DNA from: Tubiluchus corallicola
Lineage: Eukaryota > Priapulida > Priapulimorpha > Priapulimorphida > Tubiluchidae
Length of the DNA: 64,000 nucleotides
Assembly (NCBI GenBank): GCA_030141605.1
Contig: JAQGDQ010000001.1
Location: 620,001-684,000, forward strand
Reading direction: 5' to 3'
In this document: positions 3,791-51,597 of the stretch, one piece after another
Numbering within the stretch: the stretch's first letter is position 1
Layout: every line of letters begins with the position of its first letter
Notes under the pieces: model-generated
Told to the model about the DNA's origin: nothing
What the model saw: only the letters and a program-made list of their open reading frames with translations
The model's database searches: none
Translations under genes and position numbers: made by a program

Positions 3791-4363
3791 TTACTCACGT
3801 TCTTTAAAGAATCCATCACAGGTAGTACATTCACGAACTGTTACAGTAACACAATTTGACGTGACATCTGTAATTAGGACATTGTCCATCAGGGGATTAG
3901 ATGGGTGCCACATTCTTGGTTCCCAGCCTATATCAATACTATCTGTGTCAAGATTTTCAGCATCGGAACCTGAATGATCTGTTGCTGTGTGCTCTACCAC
4001 AGGCAACTTTGGACTGAGACTGCTGAGTCGAAGCAGAGGGGGAGGGCTTGAGAAAAATGAGACACTGTCATCAGCAAGCTTGGAAAATTTGGATTCAGGT
4101 TGGGTATCAACCGGAGAATCAAGAGAACGAGAACGTTTCAAGCTGCAGGTACTGGTATCATTTGTGTCAACACTATTTGCATCTTGTGTGTCACTGGTAA
4201 GAGATAATCTTTCCAAATCATCTCTATCATCAATTGATGACAAATTTTCACCAGCACTGGAGTATATTTCCTTGTCATTACTCTGACTGCCATGGTAAGC
4301 ATCATTGGTTGCTAAAGTTTGAGGTTTCAGTTCAGTTTTCCTTTGAGGAGTATTATTTTCAAC
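3791..4363 (-). CDS. Pc: Polycomb exon 5 with Pc box
   Basis: 573 bp, opening in phase 0 at ttttgaag|GTT and ending at TAA. It encodes 190 residues: an acidic, Ser-rich, disordered middle and a terminal Pc box. The stop falls one residue after the box (GFFKERE), a normal end for the family. The last codons read GAAC|GTGAGT, which resembles a donor. Splicing there would only replace the last two residues, so the TAA is preferred. Confidence 0.9.
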   Translation of the reverse strand, partial: VENNTPQRKTELKPQTLATNDAYHGSQSNDKEIYSSAGENLSSIDDRDDLERLSLTSDTQDANSVDTNDTSTCSLKRSRSLDSPVDTQPESKFSKLADDSVSFFSSPPPLLRLSSLSPKLPVVEHTATDHSGSDAENLDTDSIDIGWEPRMWHPSNPLMDNVLITDVTSNCVTVTVRECTTCDGFFKERE

Positions 4364-9404: not shown

Positions 9405-12739
<3,335 letters not shown>

Positions 12740-13753
12740 GCAATTAATGACCATAGTATACGCGAGGATTTTGCTGAGTGATTGCTAAATGTTCCTGTTC
12801 TTACTTTGCAGATATATATTTGATGATCTGATATTGAATTTTATTTCATTCTCGTTTCTACCAACTTTTCTGTTTTAACAAGTATTTCAAAACTTGCCAA
12901 AACAGTTACTTTGAGAGAATTTATCTTATATGCCAGTGTTAACACGTACATAAGGATTAGCCGCATAAAATACTCCAATTCGTCTCCATACTCATTAGAA
13001 AATAATCTACTGTAATCATTTAAGTTGAATCTCATTTCTCTCTTTGTGTGCAATCAGCAAGAATTTACGATCACGTCCCAACACTAACTTTAAATGCACC
13101 AGGAAAATGCAACAGAACAGTGACCAACCGATTATTGCTTCTACAATGTGTCCAGACGTTATTAATTCATAGCGTGGCTTTTTAAATTTGAAAAGGGTTA
13201 TGAATATCGCCACAAATTAGGACAAAACTTCTGGAGTTAACGGCGAAGATCTTGTCCAGACAGTCGAACAGTGTTAAATGGATTATGTACACATTTTGCG
13301 ATAGGTTTATTGTAAGCCCACACCTTGCATTAACTACTGTAACATTCATCCACTTTTTAGGCAGGAAAGTTTGTCGGTATCGTTCTGTGGAAATGCTGAA
13401 CAAAGTATGCTAAATTTGATCTTAGTCGCCGCGTTGTAGACCAACTCTTGTTGACGAAAGTTAGGAGCCTTCCTAATATAAATCTTTGTCAAATGCACAT
13501 TAAGGTTAAATTTGTACAGAGTTAAAGTCTGCCAAGAACTAAATGAAAACTGAGATACTTGTTTCCAAGACCAGGTTTTTCCTTGACAAAGTATTTATTG
13601 TTCTTGACGGTAATGAACCCTAATCCATGAATTTGGGCTCATGAAAACAGAACACTGGATGGAATCAAATTTCTGATGCACACATTCAAAAACAATCTTG
13701 TGTGCACATAATCCTGCCATTTTAGGAACAGCGTCGAACTAATGTCATAACCA

Positions 13754-13798
13754 GGTGTGTGTGTGCGTGAGCGTGTGCGTGCGTGCGTGCGTGCGTGC

Positions 13799-13839
<41 letters not shown>
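13754..13839. repeat. (GT)n / (GTGC)n microsatellite
   Basis: Alternating GT with an internal GTGC block, about 86 bp. Z-DNA-prone purine/pyrimidine alternation. Confidence 0.95.
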
Positions 13840-13841
<2 letters not shown>

Positions 13842-16544
13842 GTATGTATGTACTACACCATAAGCAAAGCACGTAGTGAGTTTGCATTTCTGACATTCTT
13901 ATACAGGATTGCGGTATACCACGTTTGCGTTTGAGTTATCAGAAAGTTTCACATTGCCACCACTGCAACCGGATAGTAGTGAACACGCCGTTTGGAATCC
14001 CGAGCTATCACTGATATATAGGCACTAAGTTTTTATAGTTATGGTGTATATGTATTACTAATAGATTTGTAATTTTTTTAATGATTCTGTTCATATAACC
14101 ATTAATGAGAAATGCTCTGTACCGGGGAGAGCACTTGTGTGTAACAAGGTAAATCAGCGAAAATTCTGGATAATTTTCGTGTAAATTCGAACTGGGTGAA
14201 TGTGTGAGTATTGATAATCCCAATATCGATTAGCAGCTCTACAGCTACAGCAATACGGCAAGTCGTACGTGCCAATACACTTAGCCGGATTCGTGGAAAC
14301 CTCGGTTGGAAAAACTAGTAAGTCCAGAGTGTGATTACAGCAGTGTCATCTTCAAACAACGCAGAGACGCCTGTGATGTTTTGAACCTGGATTTACATGC
14401 AGCGATATTATAAAGCTTCATGGAACGCCCTTGTTGGGGTTTTGTAAACGTGCATGGGCGTTAATTGTGATTTGCTCCTGATAGTTTCATCAGTCGCAGC
14501 AAGTGTGATTTAACTAAAGCTGCGCAGTTTCGCCGTGATTTGAGGAATTTTATTAACATGAGAGATTATTACCAATTCATAATGAAAAGTGGAAAATTTA
14601 AAAGATGACTAACTGACTTGATTGCTCTATTTTGTACAAGCTAATGTATTTTGCTTCTTGATGTTCATATTGGAAATCAATGAATTCAGACGTAGGTAAG
14701 CCAGTGAAGTGTAATAGTTCCGGGAGTATGACTCTAAGTGTCAGCGTTTATTAAACTTACGCACTTAAATACATATTATGTTATACTGAAAAACATGACT
14801 TTAAGATTCTATGTATCTCAGAAAAGTAAAATAAATGATGAATAACAATACTTAAAACATTTCTGCGTAGGCTATGCATAACTTACGTGTTTCCATTGTG
14901 GTCATTGGCCAAAATTTACTTGGGCTTATAATTCTACGTAATTTTTCTTAATTAACTAATTGGTTTTTGTAAAGACTGTGCTGTCCTGGAGTTTTCCATT
15001 TACAATCGTGTGGAAGAGATGCGTCTGAAAACTCAAAAACTTCAGCTGAAGTTGTAGAAACTTTCGGTGACTAAATAGACAGCTGAAGATTATGAAAGCA
15101 AATGCTCTAAGCGCATTATTTGTTAAAACAGGGCAAATCCAGCTTGGCAAGTGTTGATACGGTGGACTTGATTCACTGTACGTTACTGCACCTGAGTTCT
15201 AGTTGAATTCTTTTTTATATCACATCTTTTTGCCAAATTGCAATACAGCAGTCTCAAGTAAAATTTGCAATTGTTCGTGTACACCAGTTTCATATTCTGA
15301 CTGAAACGAATTCTTCTAGACACTTATGAGCGTGTACAAGTGTCCCAAAAAAATCTGTGTATCATTACCATTATTGCCATAATTGTCACTATCATTAGCC
15401 TAGTTGTAGTTATTGTTAATTGTTTTCGCTGCTGTTACAGGCACTCATCCTGATCATGTCATATATTAATAAATTCTACTGCCAGCAATTACACTATGTT
15501 TATTCGTCACGTGTTCGAACATTTTATATTCTTTCTTAACGGGGTCATAGCCTACAGGGCATGGGAAAAGAACTGAGCAAATAAAGGCACTGTTGAACAA
15601 CGCAATCGGCTGTATTTTTGATAATTAAAAATTTTCCTCTAACATTAAATGATCAAGCAAGGACGTATCGGTGGCTTGCAAAATTATCCAAAAACTTGCG
15701 GCGACATGCGACGGCGAGGATGCGAGTAATAAAAAAACGTGGTTTCTCAACTCTTCGTTGGTAACAGCCTTCGAAAATAGTTTGTACAGATTATTGAGTT
15801 AAGTTCGAAAAGCATGGAATAGTTTTATTAAAAGCCTCGCTTGCGTGATTTATAGTCAATTTATGTAAACTCATGGTAATCATTGAATTATGTAAGCTAT
15901 GTGAAAGCATTAGCAAATTGAAAATGTCGTTCCTATGCAGCTGTTTATCGATTTTCCAGTTGTTATCTCATGCTTAAATTGACGATCGTAAATACATGAA
16001 TTAGAATAATGTTTTACATGGAATTTTATTTTCAATTCAACATGAAAAGCAGATGCTGTACATTATTTACAAAACTTAATGTTGCCATGAAAAGCTAGGG
16101 GTTTTTGACCTTTGAGCAGACGGCAGAATCTTATTAATGCGAACATTTCCAATGCATTAATGCTTCTTCCAGTCATGATTAATGCATGATTTGCCGGCTG
16201 ATCTGAAATCAACCAAGATTTTTAGCAAACTAGATTTTGCATAACGCATGTCACTTAACTAACTTTTTACAAAAGAAAATTTAAGACTAAGTCAGAATTG
16301 CATATGATGTCTTTGAAAAATGACCATTAAATTTGCTTTTTCATAAGCCGACGCCATTTTTATTCCGAGGCATTTATTGATTGGCTAAACTCAAGATCGT
16401 TGAGCATTTCATTCTAGTGATGTTACGTTAGCGTTAATAATATTTTTGTGTCTGTTCACCTGCTTTCGTCTGTAGTGAAATGAAATGAAATCAGATTTAT
16501 AAAAATATATAAAATATGATCGATAAGATATGGTGTTCTGTAGT
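13840..16544. other. Intergenic, no gene seen
   Basis: AT-rich sequence without a supported exon on either strand. It may include 5' non-coding exons of the Rab gene, which I cannot place. Confidence 0.35.
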
Positions 16545-16725
16545 GTGGTATGGTATGGTATGGTATGGTATGGTACGATATGGTATGGTATGATATGGTA
16601 TGGTATGGCATGTTATAGTATGGTAAGGTAAGGTAAGGTAAGATAAGATATAGTGTGACATGGTTAAAGGTATGGTATGATATAATGTGGTGTAGCGCGG
16701 TATATCATGGCATGGCATGATATAG
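16545..16725. repeat. ATGGT pentanucleotide satellite
   Basis: TGGTA units run almost unbroken from 16545 to about 16640, then decay into AAGGT, ATGAT and ATGGC variants. Weaker copies trail to about 16860. Confidence 0.9.
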
Positions 16726-16860
16726 TACTTGTAAAGTGGGGTAGGGTACGTAATATACGGTACAGACTAATATTAGTTATCATAGTTAGGTATAATGGGA
16801 CTTGATGTGATGTGTGATGACTGACAGGACGCGGCATGACATAACATGATATGGTAAGAT

Positions 16861-19800
16861 ATGAAATAAGACTACACAAAACAAAGTAACAGAAATAAAC
16901 TGATTTAAAAAGTGCATGGAATCTTGTACTATTTAAAATCACCTATTACTGATACCTTACAATAACTTTATTGAAATTACTTACCTTATTGCAACATATA
17001 ATAAGTAACAACATATCTCTTGCAGCGAGACTACCACTACTTTTTATAGAAATACAAGCCCAATAAACACCCTTTGTGCTAATGCATGCAAATGACTTAG
17101 AATGGATGGGAGTCGACATATCTTTTGTGACTGACTGGAATAATTAATGCAAAACGAAAATGACAGTCTAGTGCGATATAAGTGGTTTCCTGGCTTCAGA
17201 GCAAATTAATGATTGTTTAGTTTGCTGATCATATTTACTATATGCAAATATTATACGGGTAATTACATTCTAACTGATATGCGCATGTAAATTAATTACC
17301 AAACTTCTTGACATTATTCCTATTTTACAAAACCTTAATGCATTTTCAGGAATAAGTAATGGGCAGGCTAGATAAACTAAAAACAAAATCACACAACTTT
17401 GACTTTATATTTACGTAGCTGAGTTGTAGGCTTGTAGTGTTAGTGTAAAGTATATTTCAAGAACGTAAAAGTAAAGCCGCATAATTTTTACTTTATATGC
17501 GTTTATATGGGTTGTAGAGTTAATATAAAGCGTTCTTTCAGCTCCCATGCACTGCTCTTAGAAACGTACTTTATACTCTCTTTGACTTTATTAGAAGAAC
17601 GGAACTAAGTTACCTAAATCTAAATGATTCATTAATTGAATAGTCAAAACTGTCTCAGTTAGGCAAGTTTAGGTGTATTTTGTTCTGATTATTGCATGAG
17701 GATTTGTAAGTGATTAAGGGGTTTTCTGAGCTACCCAACACAATGCTAATTCTGGAGATTATTTAATGAGAAGAGTCATTATATTCATTTTGCAAGTAAT
17801 GCTTACATGCTCGTTGTGCTACACATATGAGGTAACGCCAAATAACCCAAAGAATGTTAATATAACTTTTTGCTCTTAAAATTGCATAACACAGATGCAT
17901 GTTAAGGTTAATAGTGTAGATGTGGTTCGTAGCAGAATATCAATTTTGTAATTTGCAATTTTGGCGTAATTACTCGGCGTAATATCGCTGAGTCTGCGTT
18001 TTGCATTTTCTTCAGTAGAACGGCAGTCTATAATGACACTAAAATAGACATGTTAGCCTGCGTGCGTAGTGCTATCTCCGGCATCACTGTAGAATAGCGA
18101 ATACACGTAAAAAAAACAATTTTCATATAGTGACGTTAAATTATTCATGCATGTACAGGGTTATATTCGGCTAAAATAGATTGTCAAGTCGTAAAATCGA
18201 TCGGCATAATTATTATCACTTAGCCATAGTGATAGTGAAGTGGGAGGAACCTAGCCTGTTATCCGTTGTTAAAGACGAGATTTCCATCTAGAGGATTTCA
18301 AGAGCATCAGGGAGCATATCCGATTCTAGTTTCTCGCGAAGGACGCGGCATCATCTGCAAAACAGAGGTTGGTGAAAAGGTAGTGATAGTATGTGCCACC
18401 ATGAGCACAACAAGTCAGTGGCTTGTTCATTCAACAGTCAACAACAACGTTGAAGAAGTCAGGTGCGGCTTTGACGGGCATCTGACGTTGTAGCAAAGGC
18501 CTGAGTGACCTTCGCGAACGTTGCAGGTGGGATCAGAGTACAGTGCTTTGAGAATGGAGATAAGCTTTGTAGTGCTTATCCAATTCTTATAGAAGAAGCC
18601 AGAGAGCGCTATGGTCTAAGAAAGCCGTTTTCGGATCAATTACTGGCTACGTATAGAGCTCTGCAGAACTCTTTCTTTGCAGGGCTAAGATCCTGAGGGC
18701 AAGAATGCAGTCAGTGGTGGAATGCCAAGAGATGACGGCAGCTTGCTGAGGCTGGCCTAGTGTAATGGGATGGTAACCGGATGTGGTAGGGGATATAAAA
18801 CGAGGAGATGTTTTTGTTTTTTGTAGCGGAGATGAGGCACTTTTTTAGTTAATGGGAACAGAATCAGAAGGTCAAATCAATGTGCAGAAGGCCAAATCAG
18901 TGCTTAATTGTTGTAAAAATGGAATACTGGAATATATCTTACAGTATCAGTACCAACCAATGTATTCAATTAAATCAGTTAAAAAACTGACCTTATTAAC
19001 TATCAAATATATGTTTTTACCTGTGGTTTAAGAGACGTGACTAATTTTTGGCCCCAGCAGGTTCTATCTTGAACTGATACATGTGTACATATCTCAAAAG
19101 TACCAATCCGGATTTTGGCCGAAATTTGTTGGAAGGTACCTGAATTTGTTGGAAGGTAACAGAAACTGAACAGAAAAATTCTATTGCAATTGGTTCTAAG
19201 CTACTTGTTATCAGTTAGCAGCTTGCAATCAACAATTAAATTTAAGAGGAGAATTTTATCAGTCATGATTTAAAATGACAACATAATTATGATCTTATGC
19301 TGAGTAGAGAAACAATTTTGTAACTCGGCACTATAATATTATAACTACCCGCAAAGGAATCGATTTTTCCTTAGTTATATCTCTGTAGGAGCATTATGTG
19401 TTGGCGGCTGAATTGGGCTCATTTCAATTTCTCAAGCGAAAGTTTACATCGAGCGCGGTTGGTGATATTTTGTGATTGTTTTTGCGATATTCCCTCAACA
19501 CTATTATTCTGTTACTCCTTCAACAGAATATTTCGTTCCTTTGCGTAGCTAAGTCATTTATTTCTCACACTGTTAGCAGATTTGTCGGACTCTGTGGTTA
19601 TGGTAATTTGTAATTTCCTTTCGTTTCTGTACCCTAAAGCTATATCCTAGTTTTTTAACACCCTCTAGGATTAATTTATTTGGTAATCTCCATCAACATA
19701 ATGTTTGTGTTAGCTTTACTAAAATCAAATAAATCATTATTAAAGTTCAGTACTATAGGTTCATGCAAGGCATCACAGCACTAAGTAGTGATATAGCACT

Positions 19801-20876
19801 GTTTCAGTATAATATTACTTACTTGTTTATTGATCATTAATTATTATTACATTGGGCTGTGTAATTGATGATCGCGCAGATCGTTTTGTTAATATGTACC
19901 AACTAGCTTTGCAAAAAATTCAAAGATTGACCAGTTGATGGTTCTGATCTAAGTATGTGAAAAGTATGGCTGTGTATAATAACGGAACAGTCCCGATTTT
20001 ATAGTATGGGTGCAAGTTTTGGGTTATTTACTGAGAATGATAAAGTTAATCTATTAATGGTGAGGAGTTTCGCGGAAATTGTTTCAGAATCATGATCACG
20101 ATGGACGATCACGAAATTGATTGCTAAAAAATGAACTTGTATGGTTGTGGCTATATTAAATTTCGTTAATACAATTGTCGCCATTTTGCATTGGGCATAT
20201 ATTTTTTCCACGAATTGTTAAAAAGAAGGGTTTCAATTAATTTTCATAGCGTCCCTGAAAACCCCTGAACTTAACAAATCGTTTTTAAGCAAAACTTTTT
20301 GTAACGAAAAGCATGAAAAGTTTTCACAAAAAACCCCTAGGTTTTTAGCACAGGGATTTAATGCAAGCTGCATCATCAAGCTGTTCCATACATTCCCACT
20401 ACAGTACACTACAATAATAGTAAGCTTGTTAGCTCATTAATTTACTTGTGTCATCAGCACCTTGCAATTAAGAATGCAAAATGACTAATGGCTAAAAACT
20501 AAATCACATGGTTCGAAGTCAGTTAAAATATTGTGTGTGATTCCACCCACGAATTGAATTACTACATTCCTTTTAACAGGTAGTTGTTCGTTTTTTAATC
20601 GTGACCAACAAATAACAACTTTATTAAATTTCAAAGACGAACAAGGAATACTGAGCTAACCACATTGAATTGATGAATCTACGAAAGATGTAAAAGCAGA
20701 AGATCTCATTGCTCGCGTTTGTGCGTCCAAACGTTTTTTTTATTTTCAAGCCAATCAAACTAGGCAAATGACTAGTAGTACGAAGGTCATTATGATACAC
20801 TTGTTGTATGTATTATACATGGTTGTGGATAATATATGTTTAACAGCGTACTGATTTTAATTTATTTTAATTACAG
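16861..20876. other. Region before the Rab gene; one unexplained open island
   Basis: Mostly AT-rich non-coding DNA. Around 18266-18700 a stretch of higher GC carries two consecutive + strand open frames (75 and 63 codons) separated by a stop and a frame change. I do not recognise either peptide. A short tandem duplication (aatttgttggaaggta twice) lies near 19121-19158. Confidence 0.35.
18266..18696 (+). pseudogene. Possible broken coding remnant, unrecognised
   Basis: Open frames 18266-18493 and 18505-18696 together look more codon-like and more GC-rich than their surroundings. The second contains EEARERYGLRKPF. There is a stop between them and no clear splice sites. It could be a decayed gene or transposon fragment, or chance. 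No homology is recognised. Confidence 0.2.
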
Positions 20877-20893
20877 GAATTTCCTCAGCAATA

Positions 20894-20998
20894 ATGACAA
20901 ATGAAACCACTGGGCCAATATTAAATGGTTCAAAAGTCGACCAAGAGGTGGCGCCATCTTGTCACGAATCTACTTATGATGAAACGTTAATCCACAAG
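20894..20998 (+). CDS. rab26: Rab cassette A, start exon (A1), donor GG instead of GT
   Basis: 35 codons from ATG, with an in-frame stop 24 bp upstream. A good acceptor (ttttaattacag) just before, at 20876, suggests either a 5' non-coding exon or a chance site. The end [10 protein letters not shown] parallels the YYDFACK end of cassette B and the YD...K that precedes the P-loop in Rab26/37. The expected join after AAG is in phase 0, exactly as needed. However the intron starts GGAAGT where GTAAGT is expected (+2 T to G). The nearest true GT (21003) shifts the frame and hits a stop. In-frame GTs inside the exon (20936, 20951) would remove the conserved YD...K end. The exon may be dead, non-canonically spliced, or affected by a base error. 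Confidence 0.6.
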
Positions 20999-23900
20999 GG
21001 AAGTTATATTTTGATGATTACGTTCATTTATTTATTCATTGGTTCGTTCAATCATTTATTTGCTTATTCGTTCACTCGTGTGCTTGTTTGTTATTATTCA
21101 TTCATTTTTCTTTTCCAATATTATCTCCGTATCATCCCCGCTGTTTTTCCTGTCCCACCTTCTTCTCTCTCTTTCTACTACCTCACCAACATGCATGCAC
21201 TATTACACTATGTACACAAATGTACGCTACACTAGTACATTTGCTTAAAAAATTATAGCTTACCTAAAATGCTAATAACTTTTTACTACAGATAAATGTT
21301 CTCCAGAATAATTAGTTGGTTGTCATGATTTCTATAGTTAGCTATTTTACTACGTTCAAGTGTTTTTTCCTACATCCTATTAGTATATGCAATTTAATGC
21401 GCATTGTTACATACTAAATTGTAAAAATTACCAAGTGTGTAAAAGCTCACTACTTTTGTAAAAAATGAAAAACTACTTTGTCAAAAATTACTGGCTTTTA
21501 TAAAAAAAACCTGGGTCGCTATTATTGTAAAAACGTTAGCCACTTTTCTAAAGCATGCCGTTTTTTACAAAAAATAGCCACTTTCGTAAAAATGTCACTA
21601 GTTTCGTAAAATCTCCAACCAATTTTTGTAGCGAGGTTACTATTTTTTAAAACATTTCCCACTTTTGTGTGAAAACAATCGTGTGGTTAATTTTGCAAAA
21701 GCGTTAACCACTTTTGTCAAAACAGTAGTTTTTGCCTTGTAGTTTGATAACTGACATGTATTGCCTTGGGCTGATGATATTTGACGTTGTTTTATAGTAT
21801 ATAATTAATTGGTAAGCAACTAATTGTAGAAATTATATTTTAAATTAAAATTTTCATTTCTGTAGGCAAGGGTGACATGACTTGTTTTACTTTTATAGAG
21901 TTCACAAAGATTAGAAGAAGTTTGGCTAGGTTAGGATGTACCTTTTAATTTAAGTCGCTGTCGTTGCTTAATGGCCGGCTAATGTGGCAGTTCGTTGTTT
22001 TCTATTAGTCAAGTTGCCATTCAGACTCAATGGCTCCCTGGTTTTCTATGCAGCGGCACTCGCTCGTCGCACAGTACCGTCTGGTCTTAAAAGAGAACAT
22101 TGTTACCGTACCTTTTTAGAAAGAATCGTTTTGAATCTTTAATTAGATCTTTTATTTGAATCAAAGGAGCCACTACATGCCCCATCTTCTGCTAAAAAGC
22201 CCACACTGTCCTATCACTTCATTGATTATTAAGGCGATTTTTGTTGTTGCTCATAGGTCCTCTGACTCTGTATAAATCTTATTCATGGTTTTTGGGCGTT
22301 TCACGGAACATTTACAAGAATTCTAGGCTTTAAATTGTGTCAACCCTGCCCTCTATGATTAATTACTTCCAAATTTTTGACATAAGCCGCCTTACTTACT
22401 AATTGCGGCCTAGTCTGGGCTTCCCAGTAGAAGACAGCTCTTACGTACCTTCTCAGGCTGCAGTGTTGGCTTCAATAAAAAGTGTTTATTTTTATATAAA
22501 CCTCCGTATTAATGGTCTAATGTTTCTCATTGACCAAATTCGATTTGGATTTTGTAAGTAATTTACCACTAGTGGTAAATTTTGTAAGTTTGAATTCGGG
22601 GATTTGAAATTGAATATTGAAAAATCTTATATCACATCACCAGATTCCTGCAACATTTATACTACTCTCTCTTGTGGGAATGCTTTATCGCAACGTGCAT
22701 GGTAAGAATGTAGTGAGAAAATATTGCGCAAAATTGTGCCACCATGATCATGCAATGCACGTGCTTCATGTATTTTTGTATCTGGTGTAAATTAATATGC
22801 AAAGAGACCATTCTTTATATTAGTGGCGAGTTTTACAAAAGTGGCTAACGCTTTTACAAAATTAGTGACCCAATTTTTTACAAAGCAGGATTGTTTTTTA
22901 CAAAAGCAATAGCCTCTGGTTTTTCAACGGTGGGCAAGATTCTTTTATAAAATTAGAGACATTTTTATTAAAGCTGTTATTTTTTACAAAAGTAGTGAGC
23001 TTTTATAAACTTGGCAATTTTTACAATTTTGATTACAACACGCGTTCCTCGCTGGATCTCCAAAGCTGGCACAATTGCAAAAGCTGTATAATTTGATTTC
23101 ATGTAATTTTATGAATTGCCTATTTCATTTTAGACGATTCTAGTTGGAGATAGCGGAGTCGGGAAAACTTCATTTCTTGTGCAATTCGATCAAGGAAAAT
23201 TCACCGCTGGTTCGTTTTCCGCTACCGTCGGTATAGGATTTACGGTGAATACATAATTCAATTTGCAATTTTTCAATTAAATTTTGTTTTTCATCTATTA
23301 GTACGTCGTATTACGTGAAGCAGCTCAGCAGCGCCGTGTATCATACGAATCTGACTAGTACTCACGGTACAAAATTTTCGCCTGATTTTATGTTGTTTGA
23401 ACAATTTTCTTTATTGACACAGTTTATTTTTGTGTTACTTGTGCCTATGCAATTGCGTAAACAACATAAATCGCGTGGGGGGGGGGGGATTGTCAACTAA
23501 TCACAGCGAATGATAGGAATCATCAGATTGGAATCATGTGAATAGGACAAACTTTTAGTAAATGTGCGATTATTTAGAGACAGAGCAGTGTAAATAAACA
23601 AACTATTCACTAGAAAGCAAGGTGGAAGCAAAGACAGCAAATCACTAATTAAAATATGAGGATGAACAATACTGTACATGCCTACATGTAGAACGATAGC
23701 GTGTCAGCAAAATGTGGTAGATATTGCATGACAGAAACATCAGATAGAGTCCATGGACTACGATTACGGCATTAATAAGTCAACAGCTCACTCTCAACAA
23801 CAATAGTACTAAATTCGACTAATTTATCTTCACTGAAACGTGACTAATTTATGTTAATAGATTATTACTGCCAGATATTTAATTAATACCTGCTACTCGA

Positions 23901-25631
23901 TTATGAACTAGAATATCAGAACAGCCTATGACATGGGGAGTTATATGGCAGTTATATTCTTATTGAATCGTACTAATTACTGTATTACTTCATTATCTTG
24001 TCACTACCATGTTGACTATGTAAGGTCCGTCAAGAACGCTGAAAAATGACTCAGCAACTAGATCTGCATCTAGATCGCTTCTTCCTATTTGGGTAGTCAC
24101 TAAATGAACATGACTGTGCTACAGGCAGCTGAAGTTTATATGCTGCGGTGTATGTGTGGTCTAATCAGCTGATATCTGTAACTTTTTAGTAGTCTGCGAG
24201 CACTATGTTAAGTTTATTATTTAATTTTGTTAAAGTTGTGCAATTAGGTATTGTGCATTTAGTTGAATGTATTTTGTTTAAAATAACATTTCTTGAGTTT
24301 GTCTGCTGTTCAACGTTCACAACCGACTGGCGAGAAATGGAATTTTGATTTCATGGTCAGGTTACCGAACCGCTTGCCGAATTTGTTAAGACTTATGTAA
24401 GCCTTATGTAACGTTATTTAAAATTAACATTCAATTTTAAACAGCATTTCAAAGTCAAACTTTGTGAATGTTAAGAAGCCTACTAACTATATACTTTAAT
24501 AAACACTATTTTGTTCTGCACAGTAGTGTCTGGCAACGTCCTGCTATGTACAGTGCTGAAGTCGATATATTATATTACCACGTTATAAAACAACGTCAAA
24601 TTTCAAATTTAAAAAAAAATAGAAACTTTTACTACTCCGGAAAATACAATATGTTTTTTAAGTTTTTAATGGGTTCAATTTTTCTTGAGGTCTTTAGCAT
24701 GTTTCATCCATCAGCAATATCTCTTTTTTGTCTAAGTGAAAATAATCTAATCATGTATGTACGCACTTTCGCAGTAATATTTGGTATGTTTAAATATATT
24801 CTGCATACGCGTTTACGGTAATTACATCGGTGGTTGTGGAATAGCCAGCCAGTTAAAGTGCCTGATTGGCCATTGTGAGGTGGAATCCTCTAGGTGATTG
24901 ACGTTTTGCGATCCCTTTATTCCACGTTGTCTGTGGCGGTTCGTCTAATACCGATGACGTCACGATCAAGGCGCGCACTTCAAAACCCATAGGATGAAAA
25001 GCAGTCTGTTTCGCGGCGAGAAATTTGAGTTCACTCACATCTTAAGGAAGCCATAAATTTAATGAAAAGGTATGCGCTTTTACTTTTACTGACTGTAAAA
25101 GCATTAATTTAAACATTACATTACAAAATGCTTCCATGTGCCTTGCAAGTGATAGCCTCTTATATGTGTAAGTTTTAACAATTGTATTGTGACCATCCGA
25201 TACTTACATCATTCCGCTACGGTTTACTGTTTTAACTGAGATCAAATCTTTTTGTTGGTAAAGGGATCACATTGAATACCATTGGGAATATTATACCGTA
25301 ATAGCACAGATTTAACAACTTTATTAACTGAAATCAAAAACGCTCTAGGCGTTCTGTAGAAAGGTAACGAATTGTCATGCAAATTTTGAAATTGTATGAT
25401 TTCTGCTTTTTCGGCAGTTTATAACTAGCCGTTGCAAACACACAGTAATCTCAAAGTAAAGCCTGTAAGATGGACAGTTCGGAACGCTGCATTATTGAAA
25501 CGTAGTGCCATCTATTGGGTGCATTGAGTTGTTGTTTGCCATCAATACATGTAGTATCCCACTCTCACAAATACTTCATTTGTGCTGCATGATCTCGATC
25601 CACAAACAATATACCCATAATATATATACTG

Positions 25632-25675
<44 letters not shown>

Positions 25676-28600
25676 TTATCAGAAATTATAGTTTAACGGA
25701 AGAATGTTAGGAGTACATGTACGTGGGCTAAATTTACAACTAGAAATCCAGGGAACTCTATTGCTGTAGCATTACAAATCAGGTTTTGCAATTATAATAT
25801 CAGTTACTGTTATCTAATTTTTCGTAGGCTTGGTAATTTTGAGTCATCGATGCAATATACGTGATTATATACCAACTATTAGGCCCAAAGTTGTAGTTTT
25901 ACGGAATAACCCTCGAAATTTTTGGCAAGCCCTTTGGGGCTTTCAATAATTTTGAGGGTCGCATATTGCATTTTTTTGTGTTTATCGCTAAAATATATCA
26001 AGCATTTGAATGATTATGAATGATTGGTGTCACTAGTGACTAATTAATTATATGTGAACTAATATGTAAGTTCAGTGTAACAACTAACAAGTCCAACTTG
26101 TCTAGCGAATTTTGTGTTTCAAGTTTTATTTAATTACTTTGATATTTGTCTAAAATTACACCTAAAATCACTGTCCTCATTTTGTGCAACTTCATTTCGC
26201 GTACGTTTCTTTCTGATAGAAATAACGATGTCCATTTTTGAAACAATTTGCAAAAAGCCAGCAAAATGAGCAAATGCGACATTTTCGTCGAATTTGACAG
26301 TTGCACGCGTATTGCTGGCTAAGAGAAAGGAAAACTTGCAAAAGAGCTCTTTACAAAACTGCTGGTAAAAGCTGCTTTGACTGAAATAACTGTATATGGC
26401 TTCGCACTGTCCCTAACCGATTCTCTTGGCGTGCGCATTAAACTACTGTTCCTCTTATGCGTGAACGTCTGTCAACGTTCGACTACAGGCATGCTCGCAT
26501 CCTGTGTCTGAGTGGTACACCTGTGATGGCTTAACTGCAATGATTATATTTAAAAGGTATGTCTACGCCTGTCACTCCGAATGGACATGTAAACAGAGTC
26601 GGGTCCCTTTCTCCTGTAAGCGAATACTATGACTTCGCATGTAAGGTAAGTGATTTTGGTATTACTATTATGGTTTAGGATTGCAAGTACTGTCATAGTG
26701 TTAGTGTTTTTTTAGAATAGTGATGAAATTAGAATTACAGTTTATCACACATTAGTACAATACAGTACAGTTAATACAAGCCTCAAAGCATAGCTGTGCA
26801 CAGAACGAAAAATTAATTTATACTGTAAATGGGCAGCACTGAACTCTATACCTGCGGATAATTCTACGCCCCACATATATAATCAGCAGATATGCACCAA
26901 TTCGTTTATACCAAAAAATACAATAGAATCATCGAATTTATGTTATACTGATCAACAAAAATTGAAATCACTTCAGTTTTGTTGTGAACTCTGACTGAAA
27001 GGGTATTATGGTCCCAGACTCGGTTTTTTTGAGCGAGCGAGGGGGTGTTTCGGGGAATTAGAACTAATTTTCGGCATTGTATACCCGCTTTTTGCCAAGG
27101 TTTATGCAATGTAGCACTTCGGCTAGGGCAATAATTTAACGAAAAAACAATTTTGTGACCTTCGGTTTGAGCCGTTAACTTTCGTGCAGAAAACAGTAAG
27201 AAACACGGTCTTGTGTGAAAAATATTACTGAATTCGACCAAGTAAAAACTAACTATTTTTGACACTGTCATAGGTAAAGGTCACGAAAAACGAAAGGCCA
27301 TTCTTCTAAATACGCTTACAAAAGCAAACTGTTGGTAACTTTGTATAACAGAGAGTCATCTAGCTCATGTTGTTGATTAATAGATGGTCTCAGAAGAAAG
27401 ACGCACACAGTAGCTTGCCAACTTAATTGCTTGATATCTGTTGCTTTGTGTAACACATTATTGCAAGAAAGGTTAAGGTGTAATTGCAGCAAAAATGATA
27501 TAAAATACTTCACCCTGAACAGCATATTCAAACTTAGCAGGCTAAGAACTATATTATTAACCATTTTTTGCAATCAGAATGTATCATACAGCCTTAGCCC
27601 AAGAAAATTTTACGCCCAATATCCGCACTGTTTGCAGTTGCTGAAGTAGGATAGCCTTTTGCAAACAGTCCAAATACTATTATACACACTACAGTTATGT
27701 GCCCATGAAAACTTGCTGTTGAAAGCACGCTTATATATAATGGCAGAATTGACCACAGCATTAGACAAAAATGATTTATAAACTTAAAAATACCATTATA
27801 TCAAAAAATAATAAAAAATGTAAACAATAATAAATAATGAAAAAATAAATAAACATTTCAAGATCAGATTATACAACGAATTTTGACGCTAAATCTCGTT
27901 ACTCGATCGAAAGGTTAATGTTCTGGCTTCCCTGTAAATGATTGTGGATTGGTAGTCAGTATGGGCTCTTGTGCCCGTTCACACTGATTGACATGAAAAT
28001 TGGAAGTAATTTGAAACATTTGAATCGATTACTGTAAGTGCTGTTGAAGTATTCGTAATGGCCTCAACCAAATGAGTGCTCTTGCAGAGTCACGGTATTT
28101 GTCACAGATCTTCAACCAAAACGTTCAAAAAATGTAAAACCGCAAAAACAGATCGAGTTTTAATAGAAAGTGTTTAAAATTGTAAAACATGATAGAAATC
28201 GTTTCGTATGTCAATATTAGTTTTTTCGGCTTGATGCTGAAGCAAAAATGTTATTAGTTTTATTTTTTGCATGCACAGTATCTAATGAACCATAGCTAAA
28301 ACAGCATGTGGCACCAAGAAATAACGCGTACAGACAGTTTGGACATATATAGGCTGGTTATTATTTCTTAATCTGAAATTTCTAGTTGTAACTTGCTGAC
28401 GCTTTCTTTTATACCTTTCATTTGGTAAGTACTCTTTAAAATTAATTTCAATTAGTATGTATTACGGCAAGCTTTGACCAAGGCATTTATTGAATCGGTA
28501 GGTGATGCTGATTGGAGATAGTGGCGTGGGTAAAACTTGCCTCCTAGTCAGATTCAAAGATGGTACATTCCTCGGCGGAAGCTTTATTTCTACCGTTGGC

Positions 28601-31600
28601 ATTGACTTTAGGGTAAGAACGTCAGAAATTTCTCATTATAATTCAGCCTGGTTAAAGATGCTAAAAGACATCTTTTCTATGCATGCATAAGCAAGTCTGG
28701 TTGTATTAAATTGTGGATAACTGCGACAGCTCTAGTTGCTGTTGTTGTTGGCCAGTCACCTGTCGCAACTTCTAACTTAGATGTTGTGTTTTATGGTACC
28801 TTTCCCGACTTAAGGTTGCTCTGTAATGTGTAATGTGTAATGCACGCCTTCTACCGCCTGGGTCTGCATTTTACATGAGTAAATGCGTTCTGGTATTGAT
28901 ATTTGAGTGAACATTATTTCGTAGCTTTGTTTCGATTTTATTCTTTTTTTTAAACCAATGTTATATACTTATATATCTCAGGCACTTTTTGCCTTTCGCG
29001 TATTTGTAATTTTTGGAATAAGAATTTGGGCAGTGTATGTTAATTTATAGGGCGCCCGGCCAGAAAAAACAATTCGTTATTGCCAAAATATGTATCCTGT
29101 TCTACCTTGTAAATGCAAATTGTGTGCGTAGTTCCGAGGGATTAAAATTATATTAGTTACGACTCTGTTAGCTGTTTTTTAGATACATTACCAGGTCTTT
29201 CATGATTAAGCATATACTTGGTAAGAGTTAATGTGTAGGTTATGCTAGATTAGGGTTACGGGATTGCGCAGATGATCCATGTTTTGAAACTCTTTTTGAC
29301 CACTGAATGATGACCGTAGAGACTCAAATGAGTAAGCTCACAATCTAGCAAAAGCCGCTTTGAATAAACGAAGACCCCTTTATTCCATGCATTTCATGTG
29401 GGATTCCACTCCGCATTTACTTGCTTTCAAACTAGATGAATTCGCACTATTTGTTATCATCCATTTAGATTATGACATACTGATATCAAATAAATTACGT
29501 TTTGCATTGCTATTAGTTACCGCTAAACAAGCCAGCCGACCAGCATGCGGCATGTGTCATACAGCAGACGGAACGCAATGAAGCCAGGCTCAAATTAATT
29601 ATTCCACGATGAATCTGAAAGGCGTAAAACTAATTGGTGACTGTGTCGTAAATAACCGACCATTTTAACGTTAATATTTGCCCATCTCTGTCGCTCTGGA
29701 TAATTAGTTCATTGCCTGAATAATTGTTCTGAATGTTATAATGGATTCATATTTGCCAAGCAGGTGGGTTGATATATGATATAGATAGATGTAGCATATT
29801 GGTCAGTAATACGCTTGCATTAGCTAGAGTACGGTCAAACACTTGGCTATTCAATGATACTTGTAGGCCCACTGTGTCATTGTGTAAATTTGGGGTATTT
29901 ACGACGATTATACGCCAGTGTAAATCAAAATGATTGGACATCTTAGCCGCACGATTGAAATCTACAAATTGCACAGGATATACCATAAGTCAGAACAGTA
30001 AAGAAGGTTACTTTCTCATTTTGTGTGTAAAAATGGAATTTACATACACCCAAGTACAGCAATTAGCTTATATATCTAACAGTTTTCGTACAGTTTATTC
30101 TAACCATACCTAACCATTTATTCGAGACCCTTGGCTTTCTTGCTTGATTAAAACAGGCCGCGTCAAGGGACCGCACTTCTGTCAAATTAATTTTACACGC
30201 GTTTGTCTTCTGTACAAATTCGCGTGCATCAATGTTTCGTCTCTGATCATACTGTTGATATAAAGTCATAAATAACCGGACATTTCTATTTACATTTGTA
30301 ACCTTGGGGATTGCAGGATAAATTGCAAGCAGGGCGAGCTCACAGTTTGTAAACAGCAGTATGTGCTAGTATTGTTACGCGGCTTACAATTTAACAACCG
30401 TAGAACATAAACACATTTAATACTGGAAATCAAGACAGCATAATATATGAGAAATAAAGAACATCTTTTTACAGTTCTCCAACATTGTCTGTTGCAATAT
30501 TACTCTCCTTGTCGTGGGAATTTTCCCAATGGGCATTTGATTAAAATTACCAATGTGTAGAAAGTGCATTTACTGTGCACGCGACGAAGTGTTAGTCCTT
30601 TATGCAGATTTGTTTTTAAAAATCTACGTTCAGTAGGTCTAAGACTACATTATTAACAAAAAGAAAGCAGTTTGACCACTTTTTAGTGTAAAAGATGAAA
30701 TTCAAAGAACGAGTTCTTCTATTTTCTGTGTTTACGTAGACTATAATTACACGTATTTCGACTACAATTTATGCATAAATTACTGTGGCGATACATTTAT
30801 AAAGGGATTACAATATTTATTATCAGTACTGACGACATACAGAACATACTTTTGATTTACGAATAATGTAGTGATTTGATCTCATTCGTAATAACTGCTA
30901 AAGTGAAAGCAACTATTGCACAGTTTTCAATCTGGGCTTTTGTTGTTTTTTTAATGCAAACTTACAACGTTTTTGTGAGCAAAAAGTTTATGTGAAGACA
31001 TGGAGAGGCAGCTTGATATAAAATGATTACTGTTTCGTTGAACAATATAATGAATAGATTTAGGGTAACTACATTTTTGAATCATGTATTCAACGTATAC
31101 GCTAGTGTTAAGACTTTAGTGATAGGACCATACAAAATATAGCACACGAATTTGCTATCCGAGCTGTATGTGTATAATCACCTGATCTAATCTGAAACAG
31201 GATAGCTAAGTTAGCGGAAATTACGCTTCCTAACAGTAGCAATCCCAGTAGTCATTTCCTGCTGTATAACTTGAGAGCCTCGTCAAACTGTATGTATCAG
31301 GGTTACGAATATGATTGACCATTATCTACCAGCCTAAGAACGTTGCAGGTCGTTTCGGCTTTTCCTAAAGTTTTTGAGTGAAACTGCTTTTTCACTTTGC
31401 TGAAGTTCGTTATCAAATTCAATATGTCCTAAACGTAATATCCTTCTTGTGTAAAATAGTCATTTATTTAGGGCAAAAAAAGATTTACTGAATGGTAAAT
31501 GATGCTATAACTGTAATAAAGTCATGAACGCTTTGGTCTGCGTCAAAGCTATGCAAACTTTGCGAGTGTTGTTCGTTAAAAATAAATTATCAAACTCTGT

Positions 31601-34600: not shown

Positions 34601-37600
34601 CGGTTTTGTATCTCTCAACCGAGATCAATAAATGAACACGCACAAAATTTCGTTAGACTTTGATGCCCCCAGTAAAAGTCTTTTATTGTTTTAGTCACTG
34701 GGTTGGTTCCATGCGACCTGATTGTGTTTTTACCAACATGGGCAATCAATTGCTGTTGCATTAATAATTCTAAATTATTTAAAGCCAGCGCACAAGTACT
34801 TGGATAAAATCATTATTTATGCTGAATCACGTCTGGATGCTTTGGTTTATAGTAATATGCTTCTCTGTATGTTCTTTTCAAGGTGAACTTTGTGTCTTCT
34901 GCTTGATTGCTCAGAGGATGCAACACTGAGTTGCGTCAATAAAGATGAAAATAGCACCGTTTTCTCAGTCTATCGTAACATCAGTACATCTGAGAATTAC
35001 TGATTGCAATTTAAACATTTAAACTTGTCTCATTTTAGCTGTTGCTACATTCAGTGATAAACACAGAGAAATGATATATTTTTTAATTTGGACAATTTGC
35101 TGCGACTGCACTTGTATGCGCAGAAATTCGGACATTTGCGCATGGTAATTTGGCAATTGCACGATTATTCTCAGCTGCAAAAAGTCCAGTTATGAAGGCT
35201 ATGTGAACTATCACTTATTAACTACCAAAGTTCCACGTTCAAAAATGTCATGGCCAAAGACACTATTTTTGATTATTCTCCACACGAAAGAAATTACTTC
35301 ACGAAGCGAACTGAGAACTGCGTAGTTTGAATTGTACAGGAGTTTATAAAATAAATCAGTTCCAAGGGTGTACTTTTGGGGAAGGTAAAGGACACTACTG
35401 ATGCAGATATGATTTCGTTGAATTGCCCTTAATTGCAAGAAATACTATTCAAGGATTAATGTAATTCTTTGTAATAGGATGAATACAGTGGGTATACTCA
35501 ACGTTATATTTTAACGAAGTCAACTTTTTTGGTCTTTTTGCGGTCTTGAGATACTGTCAAGAAAAAAAATGTTTCAATTAGCACGACTACCAATAACACA
35601 AAAACGCTCCATCTTTGTAAACCGATGTTCAGAAATGCCCAAGTTAGCGGCGCTAGCCAATTTTGAGTTCTGGGAAAGCTGTCACTGTGTTGCAGGCATC
35701 AGTAATCAGTAATCACTATAATCTTGTTTCAAACTTTTTTTTTCAGAATAAAGTTGTTAATGTTGATGGGACAAAAGTCAAATTGCAGGTTTGTAAAAAT
35801 TGTTCTTCAGTTTCTTGGTTCACGGTCATTAACAATTTAGTCTCATATAAATGCTATTTATATAAGTTTCATATAAGCAAATGAAGATTTATTGAATATG
35901 TGTGGCGCTTGGGAGCACATGCAGAGTATTAACATTATTTTGCGCAAATGACAGCAGCACCTGTTAATTAGTGATTTTATACGGAAAAATACCATTTACG
36001 CGTCCTAACATGGCTCTTATTCTGCACTAGATTTGGGATACAGCAGGACAAGAACGATTTAGAAGCGTTACACATGCGTACTACAGGGATGCACATGGTG
36101 AGTATGGGGTGTCCCCAATGTCAATTTAACCGATGGCCGCTTAGAAGAGGGTGTCACAATGTTTACGACCTTCGTTCGTCCAGAAAGGTCATAAATTTTG
36201 CTTCGTCAATAAATAAGTAAATAATAGATACAAGTAGAAGGAGGGCACTCAGTAGAGGTACAGAACTACGCTCTTACGTGTAATAACGATTGGGCAAAAT
36301 TTTAGTTTTTGTAACTTGACCTTTGACTTTTTCCACCAAAAAGCAGTGGGTTTCCAGATCTTGCTAAGACCTATCACTGTCGCCAAGTTTGATGATTATA
36401 ACTTCATCTGTTTTGATTTTATAGGTTTGTTTTGATATTGTCGCATTGACCTATGGCCCTTTGAATCCAAAATCAGTGAGTCTCAATTCCTACCCGGATT
36501 AATCCTACCCGTGGTGACAAAATAATGCATTTAAATTTATTTTTGGCTTGACACATGGCTTTCGACAGAAAACAAGCAAAAGTAAAAACATTGATAAGAC
36601 AAGCATTATTTTTTAGACCAAACTGCTTACATTCAGCTTTCCAAAGGTACCTTTGGTCCTGGTGATCCATGCACTCTAGCATTTGACTAAGCTTGAGTAA
36701 CCTAAACTTTCATCACCATGTGATGGAGTAATTGGTTTGTGTCATTTGACTCTGTCTGTTCAAGCGATGTGTCGCAATTTTCTTTTGTGAATTACTTTCG
36801 TGAGTTGGTTTTAAAAAGCACACTACTGTTTTCTGTGAAGGAAACGTTTTTTGTCAGTCGGAAAGCGATGGTTCGCGATTTAAGGCAATAAGTGTATTAT
36901 CTGGCTGCCGAAATACGTCGATATATTTATTGTAAATTAACATCTCTGTCCTCCATTGAACAGCAAGAAAGACTTAATATTTTTTCTTACTATTCTTTTT
37001 GTCATTCATATGGGTTCGGTTATCTGTTACAAAAAATGGTTCTTTTAATAAACAAAAGGTTGCAAACATTTAAAGGTTTTTTGCTATTTAATATTTTGAC
37101 TACTGACCAGTCGTTCACCAAACTGATTCAAGAATGGTTGCATCATGCAATTTTGAAGAGCGGGGTTCACAAACCAAAACGTCACAGGATCTGTGCCTGA
37201 ATGTAGACGAAAGCAGAATAATCTGCTGTTCACTGAACTTTTTGAATCCAGGTAATACGGGTTTATGAAAAAACTGCTTGTTTATTGGTGTAAGTTATTT
37301 CCTCTAAACACCAGTTTATTCTTTTTATTGAACTTGGGTGCTAATTTCGTCGTGCTGACAAATAGTGTCATCTTTGAGTGCCAATTAGTTGGTATAGTTG
37401 GCAAATAATAGCAAAAAAGTTGTCTGAAAAGAAAAGCCGTTTTCTTACAAAAGCTTGTTTATCTTGATCTTTTTATTTCATTTGAATAGCTGTTTTTATT
37501 TTAAATTATCAAAAATTGTCATTGTTTGAGTGTTAAAGCATTTTAATTCTGTCTGCGCGTTGCTGTTTTTCTTCTTCTGGGGATGGCTACGATAGTAATA

Positions 37601-40600
37601 ATCCTCTAGGCCTTTTGCTAACAGACTTGCTCGAAGTACTGTTAACGCTGGAAGTACTTCGCTCGAATAGATGGTTTAGTGCACTAAAAAGCCTATTAAA
37701 CCGAATTAATCCATCATTAATAATGATCATAAGCTGTAAAGGAAATCCTAGTTTTAAAAAATAGATCCATTTTAATCGCAAACATAATTTCACTTTTTCA
37801 CAGTTCTTTGTTAATATGGAATTATCCAGGGATGTTTAGTTATGTAGCCAAAGTTACTGTAGATGTTACCTCAAACAAACCACTGAATCACTTAAACTTG
37901 ACTTACTGACTCAAACTAAAGGCCTGAACATAAAATTTATGTTCCCTGAATTAAGATAACTCAGGAACATTAATGACCGTATAAAATTCTAAGCTAAGCT
38001 GTAATTATCTGTTTACTTCTACAACAATATGGTTTATTTACGATGTTTTATATGTCTTAGATCAATGTAAAACCGCTAGTAAGCTTCTGCAGTATTTATT
38101 ACGTGATTCTCACATCTTTCATGTGCGTCTAGAATTTTAAAATGCGAGTCCCAGCTGGCTTGAACCACGTAAATGCTTTTACCAGAACAAGCATTGAGCC
38201 GTATTAAAGCGAAATCTTGACACATCGTAGCAGTCGTATATCAACTGGTCTGAATGTATGAACTCTAATGACATGCGCGGTACTGCCTGATGGTAGCTAA
38301 AGCTACTGCATCAGAATTTGAAAAAAACTTGCAAAATACAAAATTGTGAAAAACTAAATTTTTTTGAAGTGTCAAAGACCATTATGATATCCTAATATAA
38401 ATAAATACGCTATTCACACTTTCATTATGTATTGTCAATGAAAACCATAACTAAAATGTCACATTTCTGCACAATATACATAAATAGAGGAACAGTTTAA
38501 TGCCAATATAAGATTTATTATAATTTCAACATTGCAATTAGCTAAATTTTCACAGCCAACATGCCCAAATGGATCACAACTGGGCTCAGTTACGACTGGC
38601 CATTCATTATGACCCTATTTCCGTTTTGTCCACCTACAAAGGGCCACATGTGGCCTACCTACTGAAGACAAGACATACACCCAGATGGTGTGCCTAATAA
38701 AAATCTAGGTACTACAGGGATCAACATGGGCTTATTTATCTGAAAGGTAGGTCCCATCTAGGATTCTTGGGCCCAAGTGAGCTTGCTCAGTTAAAATAAA
38801 GGTCTTATGCACGGTGTCTATGTGAGCTTATCTAGTTATAACATAGCTCCTATATGGAGTCAAAGTAGATTTACACAGTTAAACCTGAGCTTCTATGTGG
38901 GCCCATATATACTTAGGTGCATAATATGGTTAACCGTGAAAAATCGTGAAATACCGCACCAGTTTCATATAATCTACAGGGGCGCCATAACATCAAGCGC
39001 ATACAGGAAGAATAGACCGGACGTGTACAGTCTTGCACACAAGAAATTAAATTTGTACGTTTTTTACAAAGTGTCGACTGGTAACAAAAATTTACAGTTC
39101 TTCCTGCACAGGAGCATTGCAAAACTAAATTATTATTATTTGTTAAGATTTGGCCCATAATCCTCTTCACCGATTACTCTATTGTTTTTTCTCCAATGTC
39201 TCCTACGAAAATAACCTAAAATAACAACAAAACATCTTTGTTAAGCATTAACGAAATTAGGACTTTATTTTCGAAGTCATAAGCCAAAAGCCGCTTGCAG
39301 TCGTTTGTTTGATTCTGTCAAGAAATTCATACGAAATTTCATAACACTGCATTACGAAGACTTTGTTGAATTTAAACATTTGGTCATCAACAAAATGATT
39401 ATATGTGAACTGCACTGAACGTTTATGTCCAGTCTTGCTGACGGCTGCCCAGCAGTGGAACTTATGCAGTTTAAAGTAATTTCTTTACAAATTTTTCTGA
39501 GTTTCCAATTTTTAAATAAGGCCCTACACAAAATATTACTTTGAGTTTACTTTACTGTTATCACTTAAACTTTGCAAAGTATTGTCAAAAAGCCGTAAAG
39601 TTAATTTTTACTACAGTGGTGCAGAAATTTTCAGGCGCGGTGGTTGCCGCCGTTTACTTGAAAATTGAGACGTAACTGCCTAACTAGTGAACTTCATGAC
39701 ATTTCGGAAGAGCTCGTCGCTTAAACTAATTCAAACTTCTGCATCGTACCTAATGTTCGTGCAGAATATCGTAAAATTAGTTGTCTAGTTTTTTTGTAAA
39801 AACTTATAATGTTTTTGACGGAACTGACAGCGAGCTGTTTTTCTTCAACCGTTGAACGACGTCATTGGTGGAAGAATGGCCGTTCAAATGAGCGCGCCCA
39901 AGCGTGAAATCATCGGGACTTTAAAAGTGATTTTACTATTTATACAAGGTGCTTAATACAGTTTTATTACTAAATCTTCGTAACTTTTTTCGCGGCGTAA
40001 ATTTTCGTCGGCAGTGTGCCTGCAGCCTATCTAAGGATTACATATTAATATTATTATCTATGGTATTGACGGCCTCTTCGCGTACTCCAATGTTATGTTT
40101 TTCAATAAAATACCACTTGAGGGGTGGCGATTTACATTAATTATAAACTGCATTTTGAAAAACTGCATCTCATAGTGTTAGTTTGTTCAAATTACGTGTA
40201 TTTTTTATTTCAGCTTTATTATTATTATACGATGTTACGAGCAGACACAGTTTTGATAACATACGGGTAAGTATCATTCTTGTAATTATTACAATTTATT
40301 GATTACAAATTAATAATTGATTACAAATTACTTTTGCAACGAAAATGGGTCGCTATGTTATATTCTTTATTATGGTTATAGGAAAGCAAAAGTCAAAATG
40401 ACCTACGGATCTAAATTATCTTCACCATAAGTGTTGTTTTTAAACTTGATTTTTAGGAATAAGTTATTGTCTTAAGAACTTGATTTCTTTATAGTTTCCT
40501 TACTTGGGTAAAGTCGCCTGCTTCCTGTATGTGTATAGTAAGAGATGTATTGCAACAGCTGAGCTATGTATGATAGCTATTTTATAAGGTTTTCATGGCA

Positions 40601-51383: not shown

Positions 51384-51597
51384 TTAAGCCAGAATCCTAG
51401 CAAGTGACATTGGGAATGCATTTCTTAAACTCATACATCTTTCCTTATCGATAAACAAACTGTTTGCTTTGGCATCAACATCTAACTGCAGATTTTCTTT
51501 AGTTTCTAGTAGAATACTATGCGCGTTCTCAGCTTGTTTTAGTTTATCCTGTAGATCCAGCATTGTGTTGCGGAGGCCATGAATTTCAGAAACCAAT
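51384..51597 (-). CDS. Tektin exon 8 (C-terminus)
   Basis: 214 bp, acceptor gcttgtag. LVSEIHGLRNTM through NSLFIDKERCMSLRN to TAA. Last rod segment and short tail. Confidence 0.93.

Follow-up and report, generated by a model that had tools for sequence, protein, structure and literature searches.

Can one Rab gene encode two GTPases that share a membrane-targeting tail and differ in the front half? This question is raised by a 64,000-nucleotide stretch of the genome of the priapulid Tubiluchus corallicola (assembly GCA_030141605.1, contig JAQGDQ010000001.1, positions 620,001 to 684,000), which is called the window here and whose first letter is position 1. The window holds a complete Rab26/Rab37-type Rab gene (20894-48660, forward strand) composed of two start cassettes and six body exons. 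Each cassette consists of a start exon with its own ATG (A1 or A2) and a 111-bp exon for the P-loop and switch I (B1 or B2). We propose, with a probability of roughly 70%, that an old duplication provided one shared body with a standard and a diverged front half.

One body and two homologous start cassettes

The body begins with exon 3 (35747-35788), which codes for 14 residues of the interswitch. Exon 4 (36031-36097) carries the DTAGQ motif and switch II, and is followed by exon 5 (40214-40266), exon 6 with the GNKCD motif (41697-41816) and exon 7 with the ETSAK motif (45827-45903). Exon 8 (48558-48660) codes for the hypervariable tail, ending SGCCL before the stop codon. Joined to this body, A1-B1 gives a protein of 225 amino acids and A2-B2 one of 219; both are in frame without an internal stop, and both end in SGCCL, whose double cysteine is a predicted prenylation site. 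The P-loop GDSGVGKT, the switch I threonine, DTAGQ, NKxD and SAK are found in both forms. AG precedes B1, B2 and all body exons (8 of 8 acceptors), and GT is present at 8 of the 9 donors of the gene model, A1 being the exception.

The two spliced forms match Pfam Ras with E values of 9.3e-61 and 2.6e-62. Rab26 (2g6b) is the top PDB match of a 91-residue piece of B2 and body (171.9 bits) and of the full A1-B1 form (262.5 bits), with Rab1 and Rab8 next. It is also the top match of the B1 exon alone (E 1.2e-8). Since B1 alone matches 2g6b and both forms match Pfam Ras, chance likeness is excluded.

B1 (23134-23244) and B2 (28502-28612) are both flanked by AG and GT, and each is an open, phase 0 exon of 111 nucleotides coding for 37 residues. 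They have 22 of 37 residues and 70 of 111 nucleotides in common. B2 is the standard Rab26/37 exon, identical to PDB Rab26 at 33 of 37 residues. The nucleotide differences between the two exons number 10, 10 and 21 at codon positions 1, 2 and 3 (permutation p 0.002), a third-position excess as expected with selection on the protein. Nonsynonymous (dN) and synonymous (dS) divergence are 0.36 and 1.26 by the Nei-Gojobori method (NG86), in agreement with 0.36 and 1.48 by maximum likelihood. When 20500-24000 was aligned with 26000-29500, three short alignments were obtained, one of them with E below 0.1 (35 nucleotides at the P-loop, E 0.003), and the cassette introns have no detectable likeness between the two copies. 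The scarcity of such alignments, together with the dS of 1.26, indicates that the duplication is old.

These results bear out part of a sequence-only reading of the same DNA. It had claimed a gene like Rab26 in which one body is preceded by two homologous start cassettes, with which exons, frames and the PDB and Pfam matches agree. The 22 shared residues of two phase 0 exons were found as claimed. So were the age of the duplication and the keeping of its frame, and the dN/dS comparison of the two 111-bp exons that it suggested gave the values above.

An aspartate in the RabF1 region (VG[IV]DF) was taken as a mark of Rab26/37 proteins. B2 reads VGIDF, as does 2g6b, and B1 reads VGIGF. Because of this glycine, only the gene is assigned to Rab26/37, and the B1 form is regarded as a product of it that has diverged. 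Since B1 retains GDSGVGKT and the switch I threonine, it is predicted still to bind nucleotide. Among four paralog exons of the same genome, the two that reach the RabF1 position both have aspartate there.

The searched assembly comprises 343.5 Mb in 2344 contigs, and match counts were taken from top-scored candidates, so that they are lower bounds. B2 gave six matches, B1 three and body exon 6 four; each exon was found once, all else that matched being the partner cassette or different Rabs. The best other match of B1 is B2 (63%), followed by an exon read as Rab27 (61%), and B1 is thus no displaced fragment of a different Rab. The search with body exon 6 found no other Rab26/37 body in the assembly, its next matches being 47-59% identical. 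On this evidence the gene is the single Rab26/37 gene found in the genome, and there appears to be no other body to which B1 could belong.

In prokaryotic contigs, at least 91 Rab-like relatives were found, and 80 loci were kept for comparison. The best are 51% identical and are mostly Asgard archaea by title; at such identity, animal contamination was ruled out as their source. The RabF1 position is occupied by aspartate in 57 of the 80 loci, by glutamine in 11, by glycine in 1 and by other residues in 11, and the switch I threonine is retained in 77. Rab-like GTPases were also seen on contigs filed as an acidobacterium (44% identity) and a gammaproteobacterium (38%), which are possibly mis-binned. 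In viral contigs, 37 stretches fitted a pattern and none was confirmed as a relative.

Both cassettes probably have counterparts in human RAB37. The presumed cassette of the 216-residue human form, which would follow a 24-residue start ending in HK, is identical to B1 at 34 of 37 residues, as compared with the 22 of 37 that B1 shares with B2. The presumed second human cassette is identical to B2 at 28 of 37 residues. The two presumed cassettes fit the reported protein lengths (24+37+155 for 216 residues, 31+37+155 for 223).

The upstream start exon and its donor

A2 (26559-26645) codes for 29 residues from its ATG and ends at a consensus donor, AAG|GTAAGT. A1 (20894-20998) codes for 35 residues from its ATG and is followed by GG. 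The claim of two complete start cassettes thus holds for A2, which is open with a usable 5' splice site, and for A1 only as an exon open from its ATG, with no such site at 20998.

This and several other points weigh against the two-cassette model. With AAG|GGAAGT at the end of A1, the junction 20998/23134 is non-canonical. When the assembly was searched at the DNA level, A1 turned up only once, which leaves no other haplotype for comparison. The RabF1 aspartate varies in distant relatives, being absent from 23 of the 80 prokaryotic loci, although glycine replaces it in only one. The sequence of the human 216-residue cassette is a presumed one, and a text search that covered few subscription papers found its peptides in none. 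Finally, the invertebrate cassette data come from this one genome.

The GG may go back to a mistake in the sequence, to allelic variation, to an intron of the rare GG-AG kind or to a recent loss. A real possibility, if one that falls short of even odds, is that base 21000 was misassembled or represents a minor allele, with an ordinary GT donor in most individuals. The rest of the donor context fits the consensus and everything else in the cassette is intact, whereas the single copy of A1 offers no second haplotype in which the other base could be seen.

It is less probable, and on balance unlikely, that A1 as drawn is not the true partner of B1, either because another upstream exon provides the start or because A1 is spliced from an internal site. 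Splice-site scores used here come from a textbook matrix and rank sites only roughly. A possible 3' splice site (TTTATTTTAATTACAG, AG at 20875-20876) lies ahead of A1 and scores 7.5 on the position weight matrix, above 97.5% of the AG sites of the window; A1 may thus not be the first exon, and an upstream 5' exon is suggested. Inside A1, an in-frame phase 0 donor (GAG|GTGGCG, GT at 20948-20949) scores 6.5, near the 6.8 of the donor of B1, and its use would give a 208-residue form with a shorter N-terminus. The full length of A1 nevertheless looks ancestral, since its end, YDETLIHK, has the same spacing to the junction as FNDHVLHK, the presumed human end. Among 23 candidate upstream start exons with a phase 0 GT donor in 12000-23120, 14 were inspected; the end of A1 has no counterpart among them, and one of them is the phase 0 donor within A1 itself. 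The GT at 21003 (GTTATA, score -3.2) was rejected as the donor of A1: it scores poorly and does not keep the frame into the normal B1 acceptor, and by simple arithmetic the frame would be restored only through a poor AG at 23144 (score 0.9).

A recent loss of the upstream form in this species, with a mutated A1 donor and B1 left behind as an orphan exon still free of decay, is rather improbable. The GG after A1 and its single copy would fit such a loss, as would the repeat family that begins close behind the exon. B1, however, is fully open, its P-loop and switch I threonine are intact, as are its acceptor and its GT donor, it resembles the presumed human cassette, and it could still be joined to the in-frame donor within A1. 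The repeat itself is rich in TTCATT and lies directly 3' of A1 (21007-21124). Of the 34 genome matches of the A1 search, 33 fall on it; in these, all matches other than A1 itself, the common repeat starts 9 to 26 bases past A1. Very improbable is the reading of A1 and B1 as the front end of a separate, tandem-duplicated Rab pseudogene with a lost body: the tandem order and the A1 donor defect would suit it, but the genome search for body exon 6 gave no further copy, the frame is kept with a third-position excess, and the presumed human counterpart is spliced to a shared body with fitting isoform lengths.

Predicted use of the cassettes and surroundings of the gene

The two-cassette model would work as follows. 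An ancient tandem duplication of the first two coding exons would have produced two homologous start cassettes. A2 and B2 would provide the standard Rab26/37 front half. A1 and B1 would provide a diverged one, with changes in the N-terminus and helix 1 as well as in switch I and RabF1 (VGIDF to VGIGF), while the P-loop and the switch I threonine are retained. In transcripts that start downstream, A2-B2 would be the sole possible pair. In transcripts that start upstream, B1 would be used and B2 skipped, and the product would be a Rab whose tail and switch II are unchanged and whose partner-binding surfaces differ. Two promoters, mutually exclusive use of the cassettes and different effectors or regulators are inferred parts of this model. 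In this assembly, the upstream form may depend on a different donor or may have been lost recently, or the base may be an error or a polymorphism.

The sequence-only reading had let the choice of promoter select the cassette. This stands for the downstream pair. An upstream transcript, however, holds both B1 and B2, and both are in phase 0: A1-B1-body, A1-B2-body and A1-B1-B2-body are all open and in frame. Promoter choice alone therefore cannot select the upstream pair, and skipping of B2 is needed too. The 3' splice site of B2 has a poor pyrimidine tract (score 3.5), as compared with 5.3 for B1 and 6.1 for exon 3. Such a site would help skipping, which is only suggestive, as exon 6 is weaker still at 3.3. 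No CpG island was found at either start exon over 18-36 kb (observed/expected 0.65-1.09), and CpG content thus does not locate the promoters.

The likely function of the gene would be to encode two Rabs with differing partner-binding front halves on one tail. RabF1 and the RabSF regions bind regulators and effectors, and swaps of them between Rabs alter targeting (PMC2693434). It is for this reason that two partner programmes on one tail are the mechanism that we favor.

Other genes surround and interrupt the Rab gene. A single-frame C-type lectin gene lies on the reverse strand (46962-47765; Pfam Lectin_C, 1.3e-13) inside the last Rab intron (45904-48557). Further downstream, also on the reverse strand, three open frames match Pfam Tektin and represent exons of a tektin gene (51387-54759). 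This region contains two arrays (52110-52231 and 53780-53888) of a seemingly related 16-base unit in opposite orientation (TTCGCCAGTGATACGG, ACTGGCGAACCATACC). Near the start of the window, the C-terminal motif of a polycomb CBX protein is encoded on the reverse strand (3794-4390; CBX7_C, 7.4e-14). Human CBX2, CBX4, CBX8 and RAB37 are all on chromosome 17q, and the linkage of CBX and Rab26/37 may be old. COX1, sought for a check of the mitochondrial code, had no match in the assembly.

Age of the cassette pair and comparison with known systems

Provided that the presumed human cassette is correct, the duplication predates the split between protostomes and deuterostomes. A search for Antp-class homeodomains gave 37 matches, and among the loci examined, 10 of 14 retrieved, one has the UbdA-like tail ENQALKEMKEQ. 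The UbdA peptide is a mark of protostomes. This Hox tail points to a protostome and, together with one Rab26/37 body, fits an invertebrate. We regard as evenly balanced the wider proposal that the bilaterian Rab26/37 gene has encoded two Rabs for more than half a billion years, with a hidden front half (RabF1 aspartate to glycine) at least as conserved as the standard one, and with one membrane-targeting tail serving two effector programmes. It is customary to assign Rab functions gene by gene. Should the second cassette be of such age and conservation, part of the role of Rab26/37 may have been missed. Nature would also have exchanged RabF1 and the front subfamily-specific regions while the tail stayed constant, and the specificity that these regions confer could be read cleanly from such a swap. 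The reason for the long retention of a cassette with this aspartate-to-glycine change is a question worth following.

Vertebrates have separate RAB26 and RAB37 genes, and here one gene was found. A further difference is that A1 is followed by GG, the human comparison being one of protein letters and not of splice sites. The numbering of two RAB37 mutants, T43N and Q89L, presumably fits the 223-residue form. Both mutants are in use (PMC4773767, PMC11111460 and PMC5943352), and the T43N primer given in PMC5943352 reads V-G-K-N-C-F-L-I, which is the B2-type cassette. Human RAB37 has coding forms of 182, 186, 191, 216 and 223 amino acids, and two splicing differences alter its N-terminal segment; the transcript groups are cerebellar or broad, and the text does not assign cassettes to forms (PMC9714508). 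The arrangement is alike in the 216- and 223-residue forms of RAB37 and in the priapulid: one Rab26/37-type gene, alternative N-terminal segments and a shared body. The sequence-only reading had called such an arrangement unusual, which overstates the case given these N-terminal isoforms (PMC9714508). In an exon-array study, RAB37 is listed among genes that are spliced differently in blood and solid tissues (PMC2813875).

Text searches, which covered few subscription papers, found no literature on a RAB37/Rab26 cassette pair and none that pairs RAB37 with "exon duplication". RAB37 is not named in the main text of three survey papers on exons that are homologous or mutually exclusive (PMC4465641, PMC9741552, PMC5740500). 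Tandem duplicated exon substitutions, as described in PMC9741552 and PMC4465641, involve homologous exons of the same phase in alternative use, and many are ancient and tissue-specific. B1 and B2 resemble them as nearby homologous exons of equal length and phase, flanked by splice-site dinucleotides in the DNA sequence. What differs here is the duplicated unit, a start cassette of two exons that brings its own ATG. The cassette pair is real, old and homologous, and probably a further case of a known kind of alternative exon use, not a unique one.

RAB6A and RAB6A' are made by a duplicated-exon mechanism. As in our model, one Rab gene gives two Rabs; RAB6A and RAB6A' are only three residues apart (PMC7538953), whereas here the change would involve 15 of 37 residues and the whole N-terminus.

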